Shown here: piece by piece, positions 258 through 47,410 of the stretch
How the letters are laid out: every line of letters starts with the position of its first letter
Position numbering within the stretch: position 1 is the first letter of the stretch
Source: Oscillospiraceae bacterium
GTDB taxonomy: Bacteria; Bacillota; Clostridia; Oscillospirales; Ruminococcaceae
Length of the DNA: 64,000 nucleotides
Reading direction: 5' to 3'
Assembly: GCA_017461565.1 (NCBI GenBank)
Contig: JAFTXQ010000011.1
Coordinates: forward strand, 186,001-250,000
Program-made: the position numbers and the translations under genes
Notes under the pieces: model-generated
Told to the model about the DNA's origin: nothing
Seen by the model: only the letters and a program-made list of their open reading frames with translations
The model's database searches: none

Positions 258-1367
258 ATGCAAAACGATATTATTTTCTGCGACCGCTGCGGATGCGAGC
301 TTACAAGCGACTCGGCACACTATTTTGATGATGAATATTACTGTTCTGAATGCTTTGAAGAAGAAACTATTGTCTGCTCTTACTGTGGTGATCGTATATT
401 AAGGGACGATAACGCTGGCACCATGAGCATGCCGCTGTGCGATCGTTGCTACGACAACCACTACACCTCTTGTGAGGATTGTGGTCGTATCATTCATCAG
501 GACTATGCCAACTACTACGATGATGACAACTGTCCTTACTGCGACAACTGTTTCAGCCACCGCAACGAAGGTCCTATCCGAGATTACAGCTACAAACCCG
601 ATCCCGAGTTCTTCGGTGAGGGAGATCGATATTTCGGTGTTGAGCTTGAAATCGATGAAGGCGGTAAAATTGGAGACAACGCTCAGGCACTCATCGACCT
701 TGCGAATGTGCTGTCGGAGCACATCTACATCAAATCGGACGGCAGTCTCAACGATGGTATGGAGATAGTAACTCACCCGATGGCACTGGACTATCATCGT
801 TCTACTATGCCGTGGGAGAGGCTCTGCGGCAAGGCTATTCATCTCCGCTACAAGAGCCACAAAACGACTACATGTGGACTTCATGTTCACGTTAATCGAA
901 CAGCCTTTGGCGAGACCCGAGAGGAGCAGGATGAAGCTATCTCTCGGGTTCTTTATTTCGTGGAACATCACTTGGCTGAACTCCTCAAATTCAGCCGCCG
1001 CACCGAGTACGCAATGAACAAATGGGCGGCTCGCTATGGCTACAAGCACGACCCGAAAGAAATCATGGAGAACGCCAAGAAGGGCGGCAACGGTAGATAC
1101 GCCTGCGTAAACATCACCAACTGGAACACCATCGAATTCAGAATGTTCCGCGGCACTCTCAAAGCAAATACTATAATCGCCACTCTGGAGCTGGTTGATA
1201 AGGTGTGTGACCTCGCTCTGTACCTTACCGACAAAGAGATTGCCAATGTCAGCTGGACGACCTTTGTCAAGACGCTCGATGCTACAAAGCATAAGGAACT
1301 GATAGCTTATCTCAAGGAGCGTCAGTTGTATGTAAATGAGCCTGTTGATTTTATGGAGGATGATTAA
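258..1367 (+). CDS. Amidoligase family protein with N-terminal zinc ribbons
   Basis: This 369-residue protein has two parts. Residues 1-100 carry repeated Cys-x-x-Cys pairs (from C8/C11 on), spaced like LIM or treble-clef zinc ribbons. Residues 122-340 match the putative amidoligase family (PF12224, glutamine-synthetase-like fold): Y-F-G-V-E-L-E-I-D, then G-L-H-V-H-V, then I-E-F-R-M-F-R-G-T-L. Enzymes of this fold are predicted to form amide or peptide bonds using ATP. The start has GGAGG at 244-248. The stop is two bases before the glutamine amidotransferase start, which suggests that the partner supplies ammonia. The substrate is unknown; the zinc ribbons may bind it. Family assignment is fairly sure; the reaction is inferred. 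Confidence 0.8.
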   Translation: MQNDIIFCDRCGCELTSDSAHYFDDEYYCSECFEEETIVCSYCGDRILRDDNAGTMSMPLCDRCYDNHYTSCEDCGRIIHQDYANYYDDDNCPYCDNCFSHRNEGPIRDYSYKPDPEFFGEGDRYFGVELEIDEGGKIGDNAQALIDLANVLSEHIYIKSDGSLNDGMEIVTHPMALDYHRSTMPWERLCGKAIHLRYKSHKTTTCGLHVHVNRTAFGETREEQDEAISRVLYFVEHHLAELLKFSRRTEYAMNKWAARYGYKHDPKEIMENAKKGGNGRYACVNITNWNTIEFRMFRGTLKANTIIATLELVDKVCDLALYLTDKEIANVSWTTFVKTLDATKHKELIAYLKERQLYVNEPVDFMEDD

Positions 1368-1369
1368 TT

Positions 1370-2365
1370 ATGTGCGCTATATTCGGTTTGATTGATTACA
1401 GAAACTATTTCACGAAGCACCAACGCGAAAAAGTCTTAAAGGTGCTATCAAAGGAATGCGAGGTCAGAGGCACTGACGCTACTGGTTTCGCATACATCCA
1501 CGAAAACAGGCTGTCTGTTTACAAAAGACCGCTTGCCGCCCATAAGATGAGGCTCCGCCTGCCGTTTGAGAGCAACATCGTCATGGGGCACACTCGCATG
1601 GCTACCCAGGGCAACAAGTTCGAGAACTACAACAATCACCCGTTTTCAGGAAGATGCGGTATGACAGACTTTGCCCTTGCTCATAACGGAGTTCTTCATA
1701 ATGACGAAAAACTCCGCAAAGACCTCAAGTTACCTGGGACTAAAATAGCGATTGACAGCTACATAGCTGTTCAATTGCTTGAACAGAAAGACATCCTCGA
1801 CTTCACGACCATTGCAGAAATGGTGGAACAGCTCGAGGGGTCTTTTACTATTACGGTGCTGGATGTGGCTAAGAACCTCTACTTTGTCAAGGGCGACAAT
1901 CCGCTTGCGCTGTATCACTTTGAGAAGGAGGGGTTCTACATCTACGCGAGCACTGCCGCTATTCTGGATTGTGCATTGATAACACTCGGATTGGTGACTA
2001 AGTTCTACACCGAAATTGATGCTAAGTGCGGAGATATCCTGAGGGTATCACCTGATGGTGAGCTTACATCTGCAAGATTCAATACAGCGAAACTGAATGC
2101 CCTGGATTACTATTACAGCTACCGCCCGTACTGGTGGACACATGCTGAGCCTGAGGATTATGCCGAATGGTTTGAGAGCGCCGCTGTCAAGGAGCTGAAG
2201 CAGTTCGCAAGCTATATAGGAGTATCTGAAAAGGATATCGACCTGCTGTTGGAGTACGGCTACACGGTCGATGATGTGGAAGATCTTCTCTATATTCCTG
2301 AGGGTGTGGAAACCGCGGTTCAGGAAATACTCTGCGAGTATGCTTACTGCGGAGGTGAGTGGTAA
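1370..2365 (+). CDS. Class II glutamine amidotransferase
   Basis: The protein begins M-C, so after methionine removal the N-terminal cysteine is the Ntn nucleophile of class II glutaminases. Further hallmarks are R-G-x-D-x-T/S-G-F (33-40), G-H-T-R (73-76) and H-N-G (106-108). The glutaminase domain covers about residues 1-230. The remaining 100 residues are not a sugar isomerase, asparagine synthetase or PRPP transferase domain, so this is not GlmS, AsnB or PurF. It probably releases ammonia from glutamine for the amidoligase immediately upstream. The stop TAA overlaps the next start codon (TAATG). The C-terminal tail has no recognised homologue. Confidence 0.85.
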   Translation: MCAIFGLIDYRNYFTKHQREKVLKVLSKECEVRGTDATGFAYIHENRLSVYKRPLAAHKMRLRLPFESNIVMGHTRMATQGNKFENYNNHPFSGRCGMTDFALAHNGVLHNDEKLRKDLKLPGTKIAIDSYIAVQLLEQKDILDFTTIAEMVEQLEGSFTITVLDVAKNLYFVKGDNPLALYHFEKEGFYIYASTAAILDCALITLGLVTKFYTEIDAKCGDILRVSPDGELTSARFNTAKLNALDYYYSYRPYWWTHAEPEDYAEWFESAAVKELKQFASYIGVSEKDIDLLLEYGYTVDDVEDLLYIPEGVETAVQEILCEYAYCGGEW

Positions 2366-2922
2366 TGCGGAACTTCGTGTTCGGTTACGCCAGAGTCTCC
2401 ACAGAACAGCAGAATCTCGACCGTCAGATAGATATGCTCGAAAAGTACGGTGTTGACCACATCTACAACGAGAAGATGACTGGTACCAAACGCAACCGTC
2501 CCGAGCTTGAAAAGCTACTGGAACGCCTGACTGAGGGGGACACTGTAGTCATTGAGTCCCTCTCCCGTCTGGGGAGGAGCACGAAAGACCTCATCTGGTT
2601 GATGGAGACATTCAACGGTCGTGGTGTCAATCTTGTTTCACTCAAGGAATCCATTGACACCACGAGCAGTACGGGTAAGCTCTTATTTACACTGATGTCT
2701 GCACTGGCTCAGTTTGAACGTGATGTCCTCGCTGATAGGACAAAAGAAGGTCTTGCCGCTGCTAGAGCGAGAGGACGCAAGGGTGGGAGACCTTCCATTG
2801 ACAAAGATGCAGTAAAAAGAGCTATGAGGCTTTACAAAACTAAGGAATACTCCGTAAAAGAGATAACCGAGCTTACAGGGGTAAAGGCATCTACCCTGTA
2901 CAAAAATCTCCGTTCTTCATAA
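2365..2922 (+). CDS. Serine recombinase (resolvase/invertase type)
   Basis: This 185-residue protein has the catalytic N-terminal domain G-Y-A-R-V-S-T (nucleophile Ser12), the L-S-R-L-G-R-S arginine motif and the A-x-x-E-R-D-V-L segment before helix E. A short C-terminal helix-turn-helix (about 140-182) follows. Length and layout are those of small resolvases and invertases, not of large serine integrases. I chose ATG 2365 over an in-frame GTG at 2359: GGAGG at 2351-2355 is 9 bases from the ATG and too close to the GTG. It is translationally coupled to the amidotransferase. It probably acts on nearby palindromic sites downstream. Confidence 0.93.
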   Translation: MRNFVFGYARVSTEQQNLDRQIDMLEKYGVDHIYNEKMTGTKRNRPELEKLLERLTEGDTVVIESLSRLGRSTKDLIWLMETFNGRGVNLVSLKESIDTTSSTGKLLFTLMSALAQFERDVLADRTKEGLAAARARGRKGGRPSIDKDAVKRAMRLYKTKEYSVKEITELTGVKASTLYKNLRSS

Positions 2923-2968
2923 AACGGTGGTTTTTCGCACATAGATTTTCGCAGAAGTTTTCGCACAA

Positions 2969-3010
2969 ATTCACCCCTGAAATCTCGCTAATTTCAGGGG
3001 TGAATTTTTT
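2969..3010 (+). terminator. Intrinsic terminator after recombinase gene
   Basis: A perfect 15-bp stem (2969-2983 with 2991-3005) and a 7-nt loop are followed by a run of T ending at 3010. It ends the DUF960-amidoligase-amidotransferase-recombinase operon. Confidence 0.9.
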
Positions 3011-3036
3011 GTTTGAAAAACGTTCGTTTTTCAAAC
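3011..3036. repeat. Perfect 26-bp palindrome, candidate recombination site or operator
   Basis: GTTTGAAAAACG at 3011-3022 is the exact reverse complement of 3025-3036, with a central TT. Twelve-base arms around a central dinucleotide fit the architecture of a serine-recombinase crossover site. It could also be a protein operator or a second hairpin of the terminator. Confidence 0.5.
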
Positions 3037-3090
3037 ACATCTTCTCCAAACAGCTAATCCATACCATACACAAATATAGACAAAACACCA

Positions 3091-3117
3091 TGTTATGTTT
3101 ATTTCTATAAACATTAT
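3091..3117. repeat. Inverted-repeat site, copy 1 of an opposed pair
   Basis: TGTTATGTTTA, a 4-base spacer and TATAAACATTAT. The two halves are themselves an imperfect inverted repeat with half-site T-A/T-A-T-G-T-T-T-A. The whole block recurs in reverse orientation at 3155-3182. It probably binds a dimeric protein such as the recombinase or the excisionase-like protein encoded alongside. Confidence 0.6.
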
Positions 3118-3154
3118 CGACATTTATCAACCGTAAAATATTAAAGAGACCTCT

Positions 3155-3182
3155 ATAATGTTTATAACACCTAAACATAACA
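3155..3182. repeat. Inverted-repeat site, copy 2 of an opposed pair
   Basis: ATAATGTTTATA, a 5-base spacer and TAAACATAACA. This matches the reverse complement of 3091-3117 at every arm position; only the spacer differs. It lies directly upstream of the ribosome binding site of the small excisionase-type gene, so binding here could also repress that gene. Confidence 0.6.
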
Positions 3183-3208
3183 GTAAAAACTGAAAGGAGG
3201 CTCTGAAT

Positions 3209-3385
3209 ATGTTTGAGGACTATAATGATATGGTGACTGTCGAGGAACTATGTTATATGCTTCGTATTGGCAGGAACAAAGCTTACGATCTGCTTCGGAG
3301 CGGTAGGATAAAGGCTTTCCGCGATGGCAGACTATGGATGATACCTAAAATAGCAGTGATTGAATACATCACAGATCACCGATAA
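3209..3385 (+). CDS. Small excisionase-type helix-turn-helix protein
   Basis: This 58-residue protein reads T-V-E-E-L-C-Y-M-L-R-I-G-R-N-K-A-Y-D-L-L, then R-S-G-R-I-K-A-F-R-D-G-R, then W-M-I-P-K, then I-x-E-Y-I. It is a typical MerR-like winged helix of the excisionase (HTH_17) family. AAAGGAGG at 3193-3200 precedes the ATG at 3209. Such proteins direct excision of integrated elements or regulate their genes. No tyrosine integrase is visible in the window, so it may work with the serine recombinase or be a leftover. The paired inverted repeats upstream are its likely targets. Confidence 0.85.
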   Translation: MFEDYNDMVTVEELCYMLRIGRNKAYDLLRSGRIKAFRDGRLWMIPKIAVIEYITDHR

Positions 3386-3425
3386 AAAAGCAGTGTCTGA
3401 TAGCTTGACCGCTATCAGACATTTT
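3384..3425. terminator. Bidirectional terminator between excisionase-like gene and helicase fragment
   Basis: TGTCTGATAGC (3394-3404) pairs perfectly with 3411-3421 across a 6-base loop. T follows on the plus strand and an A-run (3384-3389) gives a U-run on the minus strand, so it can serve both convergent genes. Confidence 0.85.
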
Positions 3426-3438
3426 GCTGCCAAAACAA

Positions 3439-4062
3439 CTAAGTGGTTTCAAGTTCTTCCTTCATTACAAATTGCATCGCAAGGTATCTGGAATACACAT
3501 ACACTGTACAATCGTTTGACAGAAGCCTTGCTCTGCCAATTGCCTGTTCCAGCTGACTTTCTATCATATAGAGCTGTATCTCTCTAAGAAGCTCGTTTTT
3601 ATAGGTCATCATGCAGAGTGACAGTCCATTACGCACTATCCGCCTTGTGGTAAATTTGTCATTTGTTTTTTCACATCCAAGCGCTCTTGCAGTCAGCTTT
3701 ATTACAGAGTCCGACAAGTGAGGTGTTCCGATTACTGCAATATCTTGTCCCTCAAAGCGATTTGTGCCCAGTGCCGCTCCAAAGTGCATTTTCCTATGAG
3801 ACGGAAGCTGAATATTGCTCTCATATTTCATAAACGTTATTGCGGCGCAATCAGGATGGTTTTCCATTATATCCGCAAACTTTTCGTCAGTATCGTCCTG
3901 AAAATAGGTCCTGCTGTAGCATTCATCAAAATCCTGTATAACTGCACCAAGATACTTAACCTGTGGGATATCAACGAAATTCAACGCTCCAAAGAGACTG
4001 CGACATACTGTTTCATTAGCTGTGACTGATAACATTATGAGCTTACGGAAAGACTGGTGCGA
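3439..4062 (-). pseudogene. C-terminal fragment of a DEAD/DEAH-type helicase
   Basis: The frame is open from 4062 down to the stop at 3439 and reads L-S-V-T-A-N-E (resembling helicase motif III, S-A-T) near its start. Towards the end it has Q-A-I-G-R-A-R-L, resembling motif VI (Q-x-x-G-R-x-x-R). It is therefore the second half of a superfamily 2 helicase or a related replication protein. The ATPase half with Walker motifs is absent. There is no proper start: the only methionine, at 4035, has no ribosome binding site and lies inside the conserved motif. The break abuts the opposite-strand ATPase gene at about 4037-4062, suggesting a deletion or rearrangement junction. Confidence 0.6.
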
Positions 4063-5320
4063 TCAAAAAGGTAAACCCAGCTCCCCTGTTATTCTGGTTG
4101 ACAGAAAGATCAACCGGAACGGCTGCGTCTATCTTTTTGATGAAACATTGGCATATATGTGTAAAAAGCTTGGGATAAAGCCATTTTCAATGAAGAAAAA
4201 ACTCAACGATGCCAATATGCTGAACAACAGCAATCGCCTAGTAACCACTGTCAATGTTAACGACACTACCTCGTCGGCAATCTCTATAAAGCTGAACAGA
4301 CTGATACCGCCCGGGATGATATATCTGCAAACCGACAAATTCCACGAGAACAGACCGCAACTAATGATCCCGCTGGGAGTAAACAACGAAACGACTACAA
4401 TATACCACGCTATCCTGCCGGAAAAGAACGCACACTGTCTTGTAGAGGGTAACTCCGGCAGCGGCAAATCGGTACTGCTGGCTCAATATGCCAGAGGTGC
4501 AGCTTCACAGGGCTGCGAGGTCGTTTTCATCTCCTCAGAGGACTCTGTAAACACTAATCTCTCTGACAGCGAGGTGTTCACTGATATTCTGCTTGAACGA
4601 CCGCCTGAAACCTTTACAGTATCATACATTGCAAGGAAGATAAGCGGTAAACTGACAGAAAGGGAGAACAGACATGTTGATGAATGGCTGCTTGGCGGCA
4701 AGCCAAAGGAATTCTACCATATCGAAGAATGTGTTGACTATATGCTGCAATCCCTTGAGGAAAGTGAAGAAACCTCACGCATCAGAACCACACTTGAAGA
4801 CACAAAGACCGACGGCAATATCACAGGTAAGATCTGCTGGGATATGTCCTGTGCGAGCGGATTAATATCCAGAATCGCAGTACCTTCCGATGAGATCGAA
4901 AGGATAGACGATATTGTCAGAGAGCTGTATAATTACAAGCTCAAACACAGCAACAAACACTGTATTGTAATTCTGGACGAGTTTCAGGATATGAACATGG
5001 AGGAGAAAGCTCCTATCATCAGCCTGCTGATGAAAAAAGGCCGCAAGCTGAACATCTCAGTTGTGCTCGCTACGCAGTTTATCACCGCAGGAATAGCACA
5101 GAATATCCATTCCGCCGTAAATCTATGCCCACAGAAGATATCATTCTCTCCCGCAAACAGGAACAATACCATTACTCGAATGGGACTGGCAGAGGATGAG
5201 CGAACTCTGCTTTCCGACCTCGGCGTCGGTGAGTGCATTGCAAAGGGCTGTGATTTTGCAACAGACAAGGATTTCTGCAGAGATGCAGTAAAGATGAAGG
5301 TCTTCTACAAGGAGCAATAA
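4037..5320 (+). CDS. HerA/FtsK-like ATPase, probably truncated at the N-terminus
   Basis: The protein of about 427 residues has Walker A G-N-S-G-S-G-K-S near residue 142 and a Walker B-like I-V-I-L-D-E-F near residue 313. A later A-T-Q-F resembles the sensor of DNA-pumping ATPases (HerA, FtsK, conjugation coupling proteins). Its role was probably DNA translocation in conjugation or defence. Neither ATG 4037 nor GTG 4022 has a convincing ribosome binding site. The frame stays open upstream and overlaps the helicase fragment on the other strand. I therefore think the real N-terminus was lost at a rearrangement and expression is doubtful. Confidence 0.6.
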   Translation: MSLRKDWCDQKGKPSSPVILVDRKINRNGCVYLFDETLAYMCKKLGIKPFSMKKKLNDANMLNNSNRLVTTVNVNDTTSSAISIKLNRLIPPGMIYLQTDKFHENRPQLMIPLGVNNETTTIYHAILPEKNAHCLVEGNSGSGKSVLLAQYARGAASQGCEVVFISSEDSVNTNLSDSEVFTDILLERPPETFTVSYIARKISGKLTERENRHVDEWLLGGKPKEFYHIEECVDYMLQSLEESEETSRIRTTLEDTKTDGNITGKICWDMSCASGLISRIAVPSDEIERIDDIVRELYNYKLKHSNKHCIVILDEFQDMNMEEKAPIISLLMKKGRKLNISVVLATQFITAGIAQNIHSAVNLCPQKISFSPANRNNTITRMGLAEDERTLLSDLGVGECIAKGCDFATDKDFCRDAVKMKVFYKEQ

Positions 5321-5735: not shown

Positions 5736-5990
5736 GTGAGAGTTGATGTCAATGAGAGTAAGAAGATAGTATTGCTGTGGAAGTCCACAGCGGAAGCAGA
5801 TACACCCGTTACCGAGGAGATTCAGGAGCAGCTTGACAGTTACAGGAGCAGGAAGTTCCGCATAATCGTCATGCGTTCGGGCAATGAAGATCTGTTTGAA
5901 CCCACGCTGGCGCTTTTACTGAAGAATAGAATGAAAAAGGCAATGGAAGAAGCGACGGCGGAGTACAAGGCGGCTAAGGAGGCTGTCTGA
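5736..5990 (+). CDS. Small conserved-looking protein of unknown function
   Basis: This 84-residue protein starts with GTG 5736, supported by AAAGGAGG at 5720-5727. The first 60 residues alternate beta-like and polar segments and end in R-I-I-V-M-R-S-G-N-E-D-L. The C-terminus is a charged helix (K-N-R-M-K-K-A-M-E-E-A) that may form a coiled coil. No domain is recognised. It is the last gene before the structured repeat and may belong to the mobile element. Confidence 0.65.
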   Translation: MRVDVNESKKIVLLWKSTAEADTPVTEEIQEQLDSYRSRKFRIIVMRSGNEDLFEPTLALLLKNRMKKAMEEATAEYKAAKEAV

Positions 5991-6004
5991 CTCCATCACT
6001 ATCT

Positions 6005-6121
6005 ATCATGCGAACGAGAAAGTGCCAGATACTAGGAAAGCACCGAACAGCTAGGCTTTGTGTCTGCTGTTTGATGGTTGACGACGCAGATGGTGCTTTA
6101 TCGTTCGCATGATTATTTTTT
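6005..6121 (+). ncRNA. Structured repeat, copy A; candidate small RNA or hairpin element
   Basis: A perfect 13-bp outer stem (6005-6017 with 6101-6113) is followed by a T-run to 6121, as in a terminated small RNA. Inside, AAAGTGCC (6019-6026) pairs with GGTGCTTT (6092-6099). A hairpin AACAGC-T-AGGC-TTTGT-GTCT-GCTGTT occupies 6046-6071. The internal segments CCAGATACTAGG and GACGACGCAGATGG are shared with copy B at 45976-46079, whose stems differ in sequence but still pair. The plus orientation is preferred only because of the T-run. Confidence 0.6.
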
Positions 6122-6124
6122 CTC

Positions 6125-6153
6125 TTGATTTATTGGGATATCTATGATACAAT
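6125..6153 (+). promoter_or_regulatory. Sigma-A-type promoter for the 309-residue protein gene
   Basis: TTGATT (6125-6130), a 17-base spacer and TACAAT (6148-6153), 38 bases before the start codon. Confidence 0.7.
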
Positions 6154-6190
6154 GTTATCAGATATTACATCAATATAAAGGAGTTGCTTT

Positions 6191-28595: not shown

Positions 28596-28843
28596 AAAAA
28601 CGCCCTCCTGCATACAGCAAGAGGGCGAATATATCACGGTACCACCTCAATTTACGGCATAAAACGCCGCCTTTGGACAGCTTTAACGGGCTTACCCGTG
28701 CCGCACTACAACAAACGCTTCGCACAGCCGCTCGGGGAGGTAATTCGTCTGCCGCTCTCCTGCCGATTTGCACCATACATCGGCTCTCTGAAAGGAGTTT
28801 ACGTAGCTACTGGGTTCCCCTCAACGCTTTGAATATTCATCTG
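28596..28843 (-). ncRNA. T-box leader (tRNA-sensing riboswitch)
   Basis: On the minus strand the leader contains the invariant T-box AGGTGGTACCGTG (28635-28647). A terminator stem (28601-28607 with 28621-28627) followed by TTTTT comes next. Upstream, Stem I features are visible: GGGGA pairing with TCCCC, an AGTA turn, and a GAGAGCC distal loop. The specifier strand reads GAATTACC, so the codon is either TTA (Leu) or TAC (Tyr); I cannot decide. It precedes the 284-residue membrane protein gene and is separated from aroF by its own promoter. Confidence 0.92.
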
Positions 28844-30002: not shown

Positions 30003-30052
30003 TACGATTTGATGCATTAAAACATAAAATCGATAAATTTTTTTGTTTTCAT

Positions 30053-30083
30053 AAAAAAGCGGCGGATAAATATCCGCCGCTTT
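30053..30083 (-). terminator. Terminator after gdhA
   Basis: AAAGCGGCGGAT (30056-30067) pairs exactly with 30072-30083; a U-run follows on the minus strand. Confidence 0.9.
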
Positions 30084-30109
30084 ATTATGTATATGTATGA
30101 CCGTGATTA

Positions 30110-45926: not shown

Positions 45927-45950
45927 ACGGCAGACATCACTGTCTGCCGT
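45927..45950. repeat. Hairpin, first copy of a 24-bp direct repeat
   Basis: ACGGCAGACA-TCAC-TGTCTGCCGT, a perfect 10-bp stem. The identical 24 bases occur again at 46081-46104 on the other side of structured repeat copy B. Confidence 0.85.
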
Positions 45951-45975
45951 CTGCTTTTCAAAAAGCTATATTTCA

Positions 45976-46079
45976 AGGCGAACGAGAAAGTACCAGATGC
46001 TAGAAGCCTGCACTATGACTAGGCTTTGTGCCTGTCATAGTGTGGAGCGACGACGCAGATGGCACTTTATCGACAGCCT
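45976..46079. ncRNA. Structured repeat, copy B
   Basis: This is the homologue of 6005-6113. The outer stem is AGGC-gaa-CGA with TCG-aca-GCCT (45976-45985 with 46070-46079). The inner stem pairs AAAGTACC with GGCACTTT. A hairpin CACTATGAC-T-AGGC-TTTGT-GCCT-GTCATAGTG fills 46011-46042. Loop and internal-loop bases match copy A while the stems differ and still pair, which argues for an RNA-level structure. It lies between clpX and ogt; orientation relative to transcription is uncertain. Confidence 0.6.
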
Positions 46080-46080
46080 G

Positions 46081-46104
46081 ACGGCAGACATCACTGTCTG
46101 CCGT
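46081..46104 (-). terminator. Hairpin after clpX, second copy of the direct repeat
   Basis: The same 24-base hairpin as 45927-45950 lies a few bases after the clpX stop. It is a plausible terminator, though only a weak U-run follows on the minus strand. Confidence 0.6.
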
Positions 46105-46108
46105 CATT

Positions 46109-47410
46109 TCATGCCTTTGCTGTCTTTTTTGCGGGCTTTTTGCTCTTTTCAATGACAGGCTCGCCTGTACCCTCTACGCAATCCGCTGTAATTGTGATCT
46201 TTGTGATCGTCGGATCGCTGGGAGCAGTGAACATCACCTCTCTGAGCGTGCTTTCAACGATAGAACGCAGTCCTCTTGCGCCTGTCTTGCGCTCGATAGA
46301 CTTCTTTGCGATGGCACGCTTTGCGCCCTCGTCGAATTCAAGCTCTATCTCGTCAGCCTCGAACAGCAGCTTGAACTGCTTTATCAGTGCGTTCTTAGGC
46401 TCCTCAAGGATACGCATGAGAGCGTCCTCATCAAGATCGTCAAGCACTGTAACAACAGGCAGACGTCCGATAAGCTCAGGGATGATACCGAACTTAACAA
46501 GATCCTCCTGGCTGACATTATGCAGCATTGCAGAGCTTTCCTTGTCCTTTTTGGAGGTAACCTCAGCGCCGAAGCCCATAGCAGAGGAGGCAACTCTTGA
46601 AGCGATCATCTTCTCAAGACCCTCAAATGCGCCGCCGCAGATGAACAGGATGTTCTTTGTGTTGATCTGTATGAAATCCTGGTGGGGATGCTTTCTTCCA
46701 CCCTGGGGAGGGACATTGGACACTGTACCCTCGACTATCTTCAGCAGTGCCTGCTGTACGCCCTCACCGCTTACATCACGGGTGATGGACGTGTTCTCGC
46801 TGCGACGGGATATCTTATCGATCTCGTCGATGTAGATTATGCCACGCTCAGCTGCCTCGATATCGTAATCTGCTGCCTGAATAAGGCGGAGCAGAACATT
46901 CTCAACGTCCTCGCCTACGTAACCTGCCTGCGTGAGTGTCGTAGCGTCAGCGATGGCAAAGGGAACATTGAGAAGCTTAGCGAGAGTCTGTGCAAGCATA
47001 GTCTTACCTACGCCGGTCGGACCAAGCAGAAGCACGTTACTCTTCTGAAGCTCCACATCCTCATCCTCGTTTTCCTCGTTGAGGAAGGTGCGTTTATAGT
47101 GATTGTAAACCGATACACTGAGTATCTTCTTTGCCTCGTCCTGTCCTACGATGTACTCATCAAGAAATGCCTTGATCTCCTGAGGCTTCATAAGATCGTC
47201 CCTGCTTGCGATAAAGCTGCTTTCGCCGTCCTCGCCGCCAACGTTGTCGGGAACGCTCTTTGCATATCTGCCCTTAACATCGCCGCTTTCGACCAGCATA
47301 TTATAGGATGCAAGGATGCACTCGTTACAGATGATTGCAGACTCTGTTCCGCCGTAAAGGATGCGCCTTACCTGATTTTCGTTTTTTCCGCAAAAGGAGC
47401 AAACCATCAT
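46109..47410 (-). CDS. clpX: ATP-dependent Clp protease ATP-binding subunit ClpX
   Basis: This 433-residue protein has an N-terminal zinc domain (C-S-F-C near residue 4, C-N-E-C near 28). The AAA+ core has [19 protein letters not shown] and the substrate-gripping G-Y-V-G-E-D loop. A Lys/Ala-rich tail ends it. It unfolds tagged proteins for ClpP. The start has GGAGG upstream. It lies in the conserved order tig-clpP-clpX. Confidence 0.97.

Follow-up and report, generated by a model that had tools for sequence, protein, structure and literature searches.

A mobile repeat with a covarying hairpin core in Oscillospiraceae, probably a MITE moved by an IS1182-family transposase

Two structured repeats and their surroundings

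The window, a 64,000-nucleotide stretch of an Oscillospiraceae genome, contains two copies of a structured repeat, one (copy A) followed by a run of T residues and the other (copy B) adjoining the 3′ end of a clpX-like gene (Table 1). The initial annotation had placed them at 6005-6113 and 45976-46079 and had described loop blocks common to both, and the sequence bears this out at each place. Covariance model R1, which was built from the alignment described below, finds two strong matches within the window, the next best besides their minus strands being 30037-30097 at 22.2 bits. Folded as single strands and compared with dinucleotide shuffles, copies A and B give z scores of -7.31 and -6.85, respectively, with none of 200 shuffles as stable in either case.

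Copy A lies in sense with both adjacent open reading frames (ORFs). Its conserved block GATACTAGGA forms a short helix between two G.A/A.G mismatch sites, as judged by eye. The T-run with which it had been said to end was located just 3′ of it, and P1 together with this T-run resembles an intrinsic terminator. Copy A shows no flanking hairpin duplication (direct-repeat score 5.5) and no clear left end (7 errors). Copy B has the anatomy of an insertion, being bounded by identical 25-bp hairpins as in the rplL case described below, and its target appears to be the terminator hairpin of the clpX-like gene. The stems of the two copies differ in sequence and still pair, AACAGC/GCTGTT in copy A corresponding to CACTATGAC/GTCATAGTG in copy B, as had been proposed. 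The same proposal needs correction at the outermost stem of copy B, where pairing is partial: the 3′ arm TCGACAGCCTGA is a usual transposon end, whereas the 5′ arm is CAAGGCGAACGA.

Table 1. Features of the two repeat copies and their flanks, in window coordinates
Feature	Position	Strand	Basis or remark
Copy A, whole covariance-model match	6000..6113	+	103.6 bits (R1)
Copy A outer helix P1, 5′ arm	6006..6017	+	consensus structure mapped onto the sequence
Copy A outer helix P1, 3′ arm	6101..6112	+	place of the right terminal repeat in mobile copies; letters unlike the usual end
Copy A helix P2, 5′ arm	6019..6027	+	alignment structure
Copy A helix P2, 3′ arm	6091..6099	+	alignment structure
Copy A conserved inner block GATACTAGGA	6028..6037	+	column conservation
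Copy A conserved inner block GACGACGCAGA, opposite GATACTAGGA	6080..6090	+	column conservation
Copy A variable helix P3, 5′ arm, includes AACAGC	6038..6051	+	alignment structure
Copy A variable helix P3, 3′ arm, includes GCTGTT	6066..6079	+	alignment structure
Copy A tip, made up of a bulged T, a stem of four pairs and the invariant TTTGT loop	6052..6065	+	alignment, conservation
T-run 3′ of copy A	6116..6121	+	sequence
Duplicated 25-bp hairpin flanking copy B, left copy	45927..45951		sequence, direct-repeat score, folding
Copy B as inserted, element between both hairpins	45952..46080	+	left end resembles the left terminal repeat only weakly (5 errors)
Copy B covariance-model match	45968..46082	+	94.2 bits (R1)
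Copy B P2/P1 3′ arm, usual right terminal repeat GGCACTTTATCGACAGCCTG	46061..46080	+	sequence, alignment
Duplicated hairpin, right copy, adjoining the clpX 3′ end	46081..46105		sequence, direct-repeat score, folding
clpX-like gene	46109..47410	-	ORF

No known RNA family was recognised at either copy, in keeping with the initial annotation, which had named no riboswitch or ribozyme. At gathering threshold, the sole Rfam match over the window was a T-box elsewhere, and in a permissive scan of 5950-6170 the single hit was rncO, whose 13.1 bits fall short of its threshold of 43. The repeat thus has the conserved loops and covarying stems of Rfam's structured RNA motifs, but in gathering-level and permissive scans it matches no family of Rfam 15. 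A likeness of the mismatch sites to kink-turns or hammerhead cores was considered but not adopted. The T-box leader of the window (RF00230, 114.4 bits) occupies 28618-28833 on the minus strand. Upstream of copy A, positions 258-5320 encode amidoligase-like and class-II amidotransferase-like proteins, a resolvase and an ATPase weakly like FtsK, and may represent an integrated mobile region.

Distribution, fold and strand of the repeat

BLASTN searches with copy A match six places (self included) in the window's own genome, and 26 of the 43 genomes of the genus. A pattern of two conserved blocks identified 107 stretches in a named genome collection, 105 of which belong by title to Oscillospiraceae, Clostridia, Firmicutes or Gemmiger; the other two (L060, L069) have no R1 match at E up to 1. 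These two were excluded from the analyses, as were L151, L152 and L154, which have no model match, and L128, set aside at first as a chance hit but in fact a diverged relative in a Candidatus Gemmiger record (712-821, 37.6 bits). R1 itself finds 15 matches in the window's own genome and at least 830 across 39 of 41 genomes of the genus, with up to 71 in one genome. Beyond the genus, at least 10 genomes from 7 of 126 genera were matched in a sample of 247 from the family, and at least five in a sample of 295 from the order, every one of them belonging to that family; R1 runs on more than 40 genomes used stricter filters and scored a limited number of candidates, so that such counts are lower bounds. 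The covariance-model search that had been suggested at the outset thus returned further copies from the same and related genomes, and neither a match to a known family nor a lack of further copies was encountered. Phage and plasmid collections gave no match to the L097 element. One contig of a viral collection (L153, 674-788) carries a 102-bit copy of the repeat.

The alignment underlying R1 (A1) comprises 68 of 69 selected copies; the remaining one, L026, has its right end cut, and copies at contig edges, cores that duplicate others and copies whose loops hold large insertions are excluded. Its consensus is a single long hairpin, in which an outer helix P1 of 12 pairs is followed by P2 of 9 pairs, three further pairs, an internal loop with one extra pair, the variable helix P3, and a tip in which a bulged T precedes a short stem closed by the invariant TTTGT loop. 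Across the 2924 cells formed by 43 pairs and 68 sequences, 95.1% are standard pairs, compared with 78.9% after shuffling and only 28.4-40.7% when partners are slid by 1-3 columns. Changes on both sides of a pair occur in 447 cells, against 117.4 ± 10.2 in shuffles, and none of 500 shuffles reached any of the five observed measures; relatedness among copies is ignored by the shuffles and retained by the slid-partner controls.

The unpaired positions behave quite differently from the stems. Within columns 19-104, the majority letter accounts on average for 98.1% of an unpaired column (21 columns) and for 79.4% of a paired one (62 columns), and the G.A sites, bulged T and asymmetric loop are nearly invariant across copies. 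The same holds within one genome bin (CANQOJ), where comparison of 13 copies over 936 P3 pair cells finds 314 that differ on both sides and 88 that differ on one, while the inner loop columns differ in only 46 of 1794 cells. These patterns support an inner core in which the letters of the stem change fast and the fold and loops are kept by selection.

Equivalent strands would yield G·T and A·C cells at equal frequency. In the 68-copy alignment, P2 instead contains 51 G·T cells and 1 A·C, and the inner helices of columns 31-58 contain 66 and 22, whereas P1, with 29 and 24, is without strand bias. Counted per copy, 49 copies have more G·T, 9 have more A·C and 10 have equal numbers; counted by pair, the excess is 19 to 7. 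Because this asymmetry is found in the inner helices and not in the terminal repeats, it argues that one strand is selected to fold: by these counts, P1 behaves like the double-stranded ends of a transposon and the inner part like a folded plus strand. The selected strand of the core is probably RNA, although single-stranded DNA would be compatible with the same asymmetry. Covariation, strand asymmetry and paired changes within one genome together support the selection on structure that the initial annotation had read from two copies.

In other genera of the family, the core blocks are kept and P1 and the ends are different. There, cores lie inside elements of 156-369 bp between motifs like TGACATAAGAAAAC, the larger relatives being L304, L310, L315 and L320 in G192, and L316 and L329 in G272. 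Since the same core is joined to different ends, it must either predate particular ends or move between them. In two of these relatives, L315 and L329, loops or junctions of the core bear additional hairpins, as identified by eye; structured RNAs likewise carry additions at such places.

Terminator hairpins, terminal repeats and a candidate transposase

Genome comparison shows that the repeat inserts at predicted intrinsic-terminator hairpins, duplicating the whole hairpin. In genome G030, a 130-bp element is found 3′ of rplL between two identical 27-bp hairpins, and at this length it is too short to hold a transposase. The sister genomes G034, G040 and G041 represent the empty site, with a single hairpin followed by T residues and no element after rplL. 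The comparison covered 13 of the 40 genomes that have an rplL match, and the core was also unseen in the remaining nine loci. After insertion, the first hairpin is separated from the T-run, while the second keeps it.

A long flanking direct repeat (score of at least 13) is present at 14 of the 90 copies that have enough flanking sequence, but only at 0.06% of mismatched pairs of left and right flanks. These repeats align over 21-34 bp, and all 14 fold as hairpins of 6-12 pairs; for 12 of them, no shuffle of 200 was equally stable, with one such shuffle for L014 and three for L132. T-runs lie 3′ of some of the duplicated hairpins. A left terminal repeat of the type CAGNCTGTANAAAAAGTC, with up to three errors, was found in 32 of the 90 copies and in none of 90 shuffled flanks, and in 11 of the 14 copies with hairpin duplication. 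Copies without clear signs are therefore the majority, as duplication is clear in only 14 and the left end in only 32 of the 90. With the empty site and these duplications, the mobile hairpin element that had been raised as one possibility for the two window copies is well founded. At L031, compensating changes distinguish one flanking hairpin (GCTC/GAGC) from the other (GTTC/GAAC), as if both were kept under selection as terminators. In G037, by contrast with elements that carry the structured core, L221, L225 and L234 are minimal elements of about 45 bases that consist of the left end and a short hairpin.

The end motif CAGACTGTATAAAAAGTC, with two mismatches allowed, occurs in 27 of the 43 genomes of the genus. 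Elements with such ends but other insides (L196, L197, L206 and L229) are also flanked by duplicated hairpins, which indicates that the core is not needed for mobility. A search with the transposase domain PF13751 found matches in 12 of the 43 genomes, and the presumed mover transposases score over its cut-off. At L242 and L244, the transposase frame is bounded on both sides by ends of the type CAGNYTGTNNAAAAA and by a duplicated hairpin; their ends depart from a loose pattern at 0-2 positions, and at L243 a single end of this kind is present. Ends of this type are common to the IS1182 loci and the MITE copies. Against NF033551, the NCBIfam equivalog for IS1182 (cut-off 270), the 476-residue protein of L244 scores 379.1 bits and the 407-residue protein of L242 scores 301.2 bits. 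The listed frame of L242 matches the profile from position 57 onward only, and so it may be truncated at its start.

The IS1182 transposase is, on this evidence, the likely mover of the repeat, acting in trans. This link relies on shared ends and a shared mode of target use rather than on co-occurrence. G033, the home of L244, has 70 R1 matches, and G025, the home of L242, has one weak match. PF13751 is found in only one of the 12 genomes with at least 20 model matches (G033), although draft bins may have lost copies, and the window's own genome yields none. It may be that the passenger persists where its mover has disappeared, or that draft assemblies have lost the mover; many of the genomes are fragmented metagenome bins, from which repeated transposases are easily lost. 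No core was detected inside the IS1182 loci L241-L244 at E up to 1. A scan for facing ends separated by 600-4500 bases gave seven pairs in six loci; inspection of the ORFs between those of L195 and L213, and in L199, found ordinary genes and no recognised transposase.

Nature of the repeat and competing explanations

The repeat is best explained, with good confidence, as a non-autonomous transposable element (a miniature inverted-repeat element, or MITE) whose movement in trans most likely depends on an IS1182-family transposase. It is short, with no room for a transposase gene, its terminal inverted repeats are like those of the putative autonomous element, and both a target duplication and an empty site are found. 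Confidence in this reading is slightly lowered by the presence of the transposase domain in only one of the 12 copy-rich genomes. An IS1182 element of a Clostridium species, ISCbo5, is described as inserting almost only in gene-end hairpins thought to be terminators (PMC3098183). The family members IS1272 and TnSha1 also target hairpins, partly at confirmed terminators for TnSha1, but reportedly remove some of the hairpin or take its place, without duplicating the target (PMC4923244, PMC5678879). The target choice of the repeat, insertion into inverted-repeat hairpins in probable association with an IS1182 transposase, fits this family as described there. Its mode departs from that of IS1272 and TnSha1, in that the hairpin is duplicated in full and the element delivered is a gene-less passenger of 130 bp; insertion of the IS1272 type, with partial deletion or replacement, was accordingly set aside.

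As summarised in PMC10969869, bacterial MITEs are short, non-autonomous elements with terminal inverted repeats, a stable transcript fold and direct repeats at their ends. The repeat shares their shortness, lack of autonomy, terminal inverted repeats, stable (here predicted) fold and terminal direct repeats, but differs from MITEs as generally described there in that its inner part is under fold-level selection and is common to elements with different ends. Its nearest analogue is pneumococcal BOX, which, together with RUP and SPRITE, belongs to the small, interspersed, highly base-paired repeats of many copies that are thought to be MITEs (PMC3049150). One BOX is reported between two T-box riboswitches, and neither compensatory change nor covariation came up in a term search of the paper (PMC3049150). 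Relative to the description given there, the repeat stands apart by its strong covariation, by ends of the IS1182 type and by duplication of the terminator hairpin where insertions are clear. No description of the repeat was found in the literature searched, a search that misses most subscription journals.

Under the MITE reading, the element enters the hairpin of an intrinsic terminator and duplicates it whole. Transcription would then pass the first hairpin, which has been parted from its T-run, copy the element within the 3′ untranslated region, and stop at the second, which is a complete terminator. Insertion would thus do little harm, as the second hairpin should still terminate. The ends lack strand bias, as expected of double-stranded recognition repeats, whereas the core, about 85 nucleotides with its stem, is conserved as a fold of one strand and would work as RNA, perhaps either as a structured small RNA or bound by a protein, in favour of the element. 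The insertion steps follow from genome comparison, and the RNA steps are inferred from evolution. In the most likely picture, an IS1182-driven MITE has a folded-RNA core that either benefits the element or is a tolerated passenger of 3′ untranslated regions.

The chief rival for the covariation is a plain MITE with no functional core, in which paired changes arise by hairpin-templated repair, one arm being copied onto the other during replication. The core is indeed a long hairpin, both-side changes abound in a single genome (314 of 936 P3 cells), and core-less elements with the same ends exist. Templated repair should nevertheless erase mismatches, yet the unpaired columns stay at their 98.1% average; it should not prefer G·T over A·C on one strand, as 49 copies do against 9; and it leaves the persistence of the core in genera with other ends unaccounted for. 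This reading is accordingly held to be rather improbable. Strand-specific structure would also be expected of a REP-like hairpin that travels in single-stranded form under a Y1 (HUH) transposase, the enzyme that mobilises REP-type hairpins, and a hairpin with a conserved bulge and loops would suit it. The Y1_Tnp domain is found in 9 of the 43 genomes of the genus and in two of the 12 copy-rich ones (G006, G010), one more than the IS1182 domain, but is missing from the other ten and from G030. No core was found at E up to 1 in the fetched flanks of any of 16 Y1 loci, and long target duplications are not expected of the Y1/HUH mechanism. As none of the 16 Y1 loci has the core in its fetched flanks, a REP/RAYT element was rejected, and the reading is considered very unlikely.

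An equally slim chance is given to a cis-acting RNA, that is, a riboswitch, leader or attenuator of adjacent genes. Conserved loops with covarying stems would fit such an RNA, as would the sense orientation of copy A and the T-run after it. The orientation of copies to their flanking genes is, however, random (29 sense, 27 antisense, 16 convergent and 10 divergent), as counted with a simple longest-ORF caller for the 82 of 96 copies that could be placed, 4 others lying inside a predicted ORF and 10 having no ORF within 700 bases on one side. A cis leader was rejected for want of a constant orientation to a gene, and the failure to match an Rfam family also weighs against it. A stronger form of the MITE reading holds that the element bears a trans-acting small RNA, spread by IS1182 and benefiting the element or its host, for example by damping the transposase or binding a host protein. 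The strand-specific fold, the occurrence of the core across genera with different ends and the extra hairpins at its loops all favour this, and insertion into a terminator, judging from the rplL case, is expected to place the element within a transcript. Against it, none of the tested loci L241-L244 has the core, and a promoter in the left end was rejected as inconsistent between lineages when compared by eye; such a small RNA is possible, at less than even chances. A mobile noncoding RNA family of Oscillospiraceae-type bacteria, with a strand-specific folded core, different transposon ends in different genera, delivery into 3′ untranslated regions by a terminator-duplicating IS1182 transposase and a function in trans that would maintain selection on the fold across dozens of copies in a genome, is suggested about as tentatively.

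MITEs are usually regarded as decaying filler. The repeat would be a MITE whose inside keeps its fold and loops while the stem letters turn over, in as many as 71 copies per genome. If the core is RNA, transposons would be spreading a structured RNA through these bacteria, and duplication of the whole terminator would let a transposon place cargo in transcripts without breaking termination.

Arrays of the repeat also occur in the window's own genome. On contig C4 (L286, 2190-2539), about three diverged units of roughly 110 bases each, with a different tip, are arranged head to tail. About three diverged head-to-tail units are likewise present on contig C6 (L287, 2237-2507), where, as judged by eye, they sit between an apparent upstream part of a T-box leader and a T-box/terminator, ahead of cysE-like and cysS-like genes.
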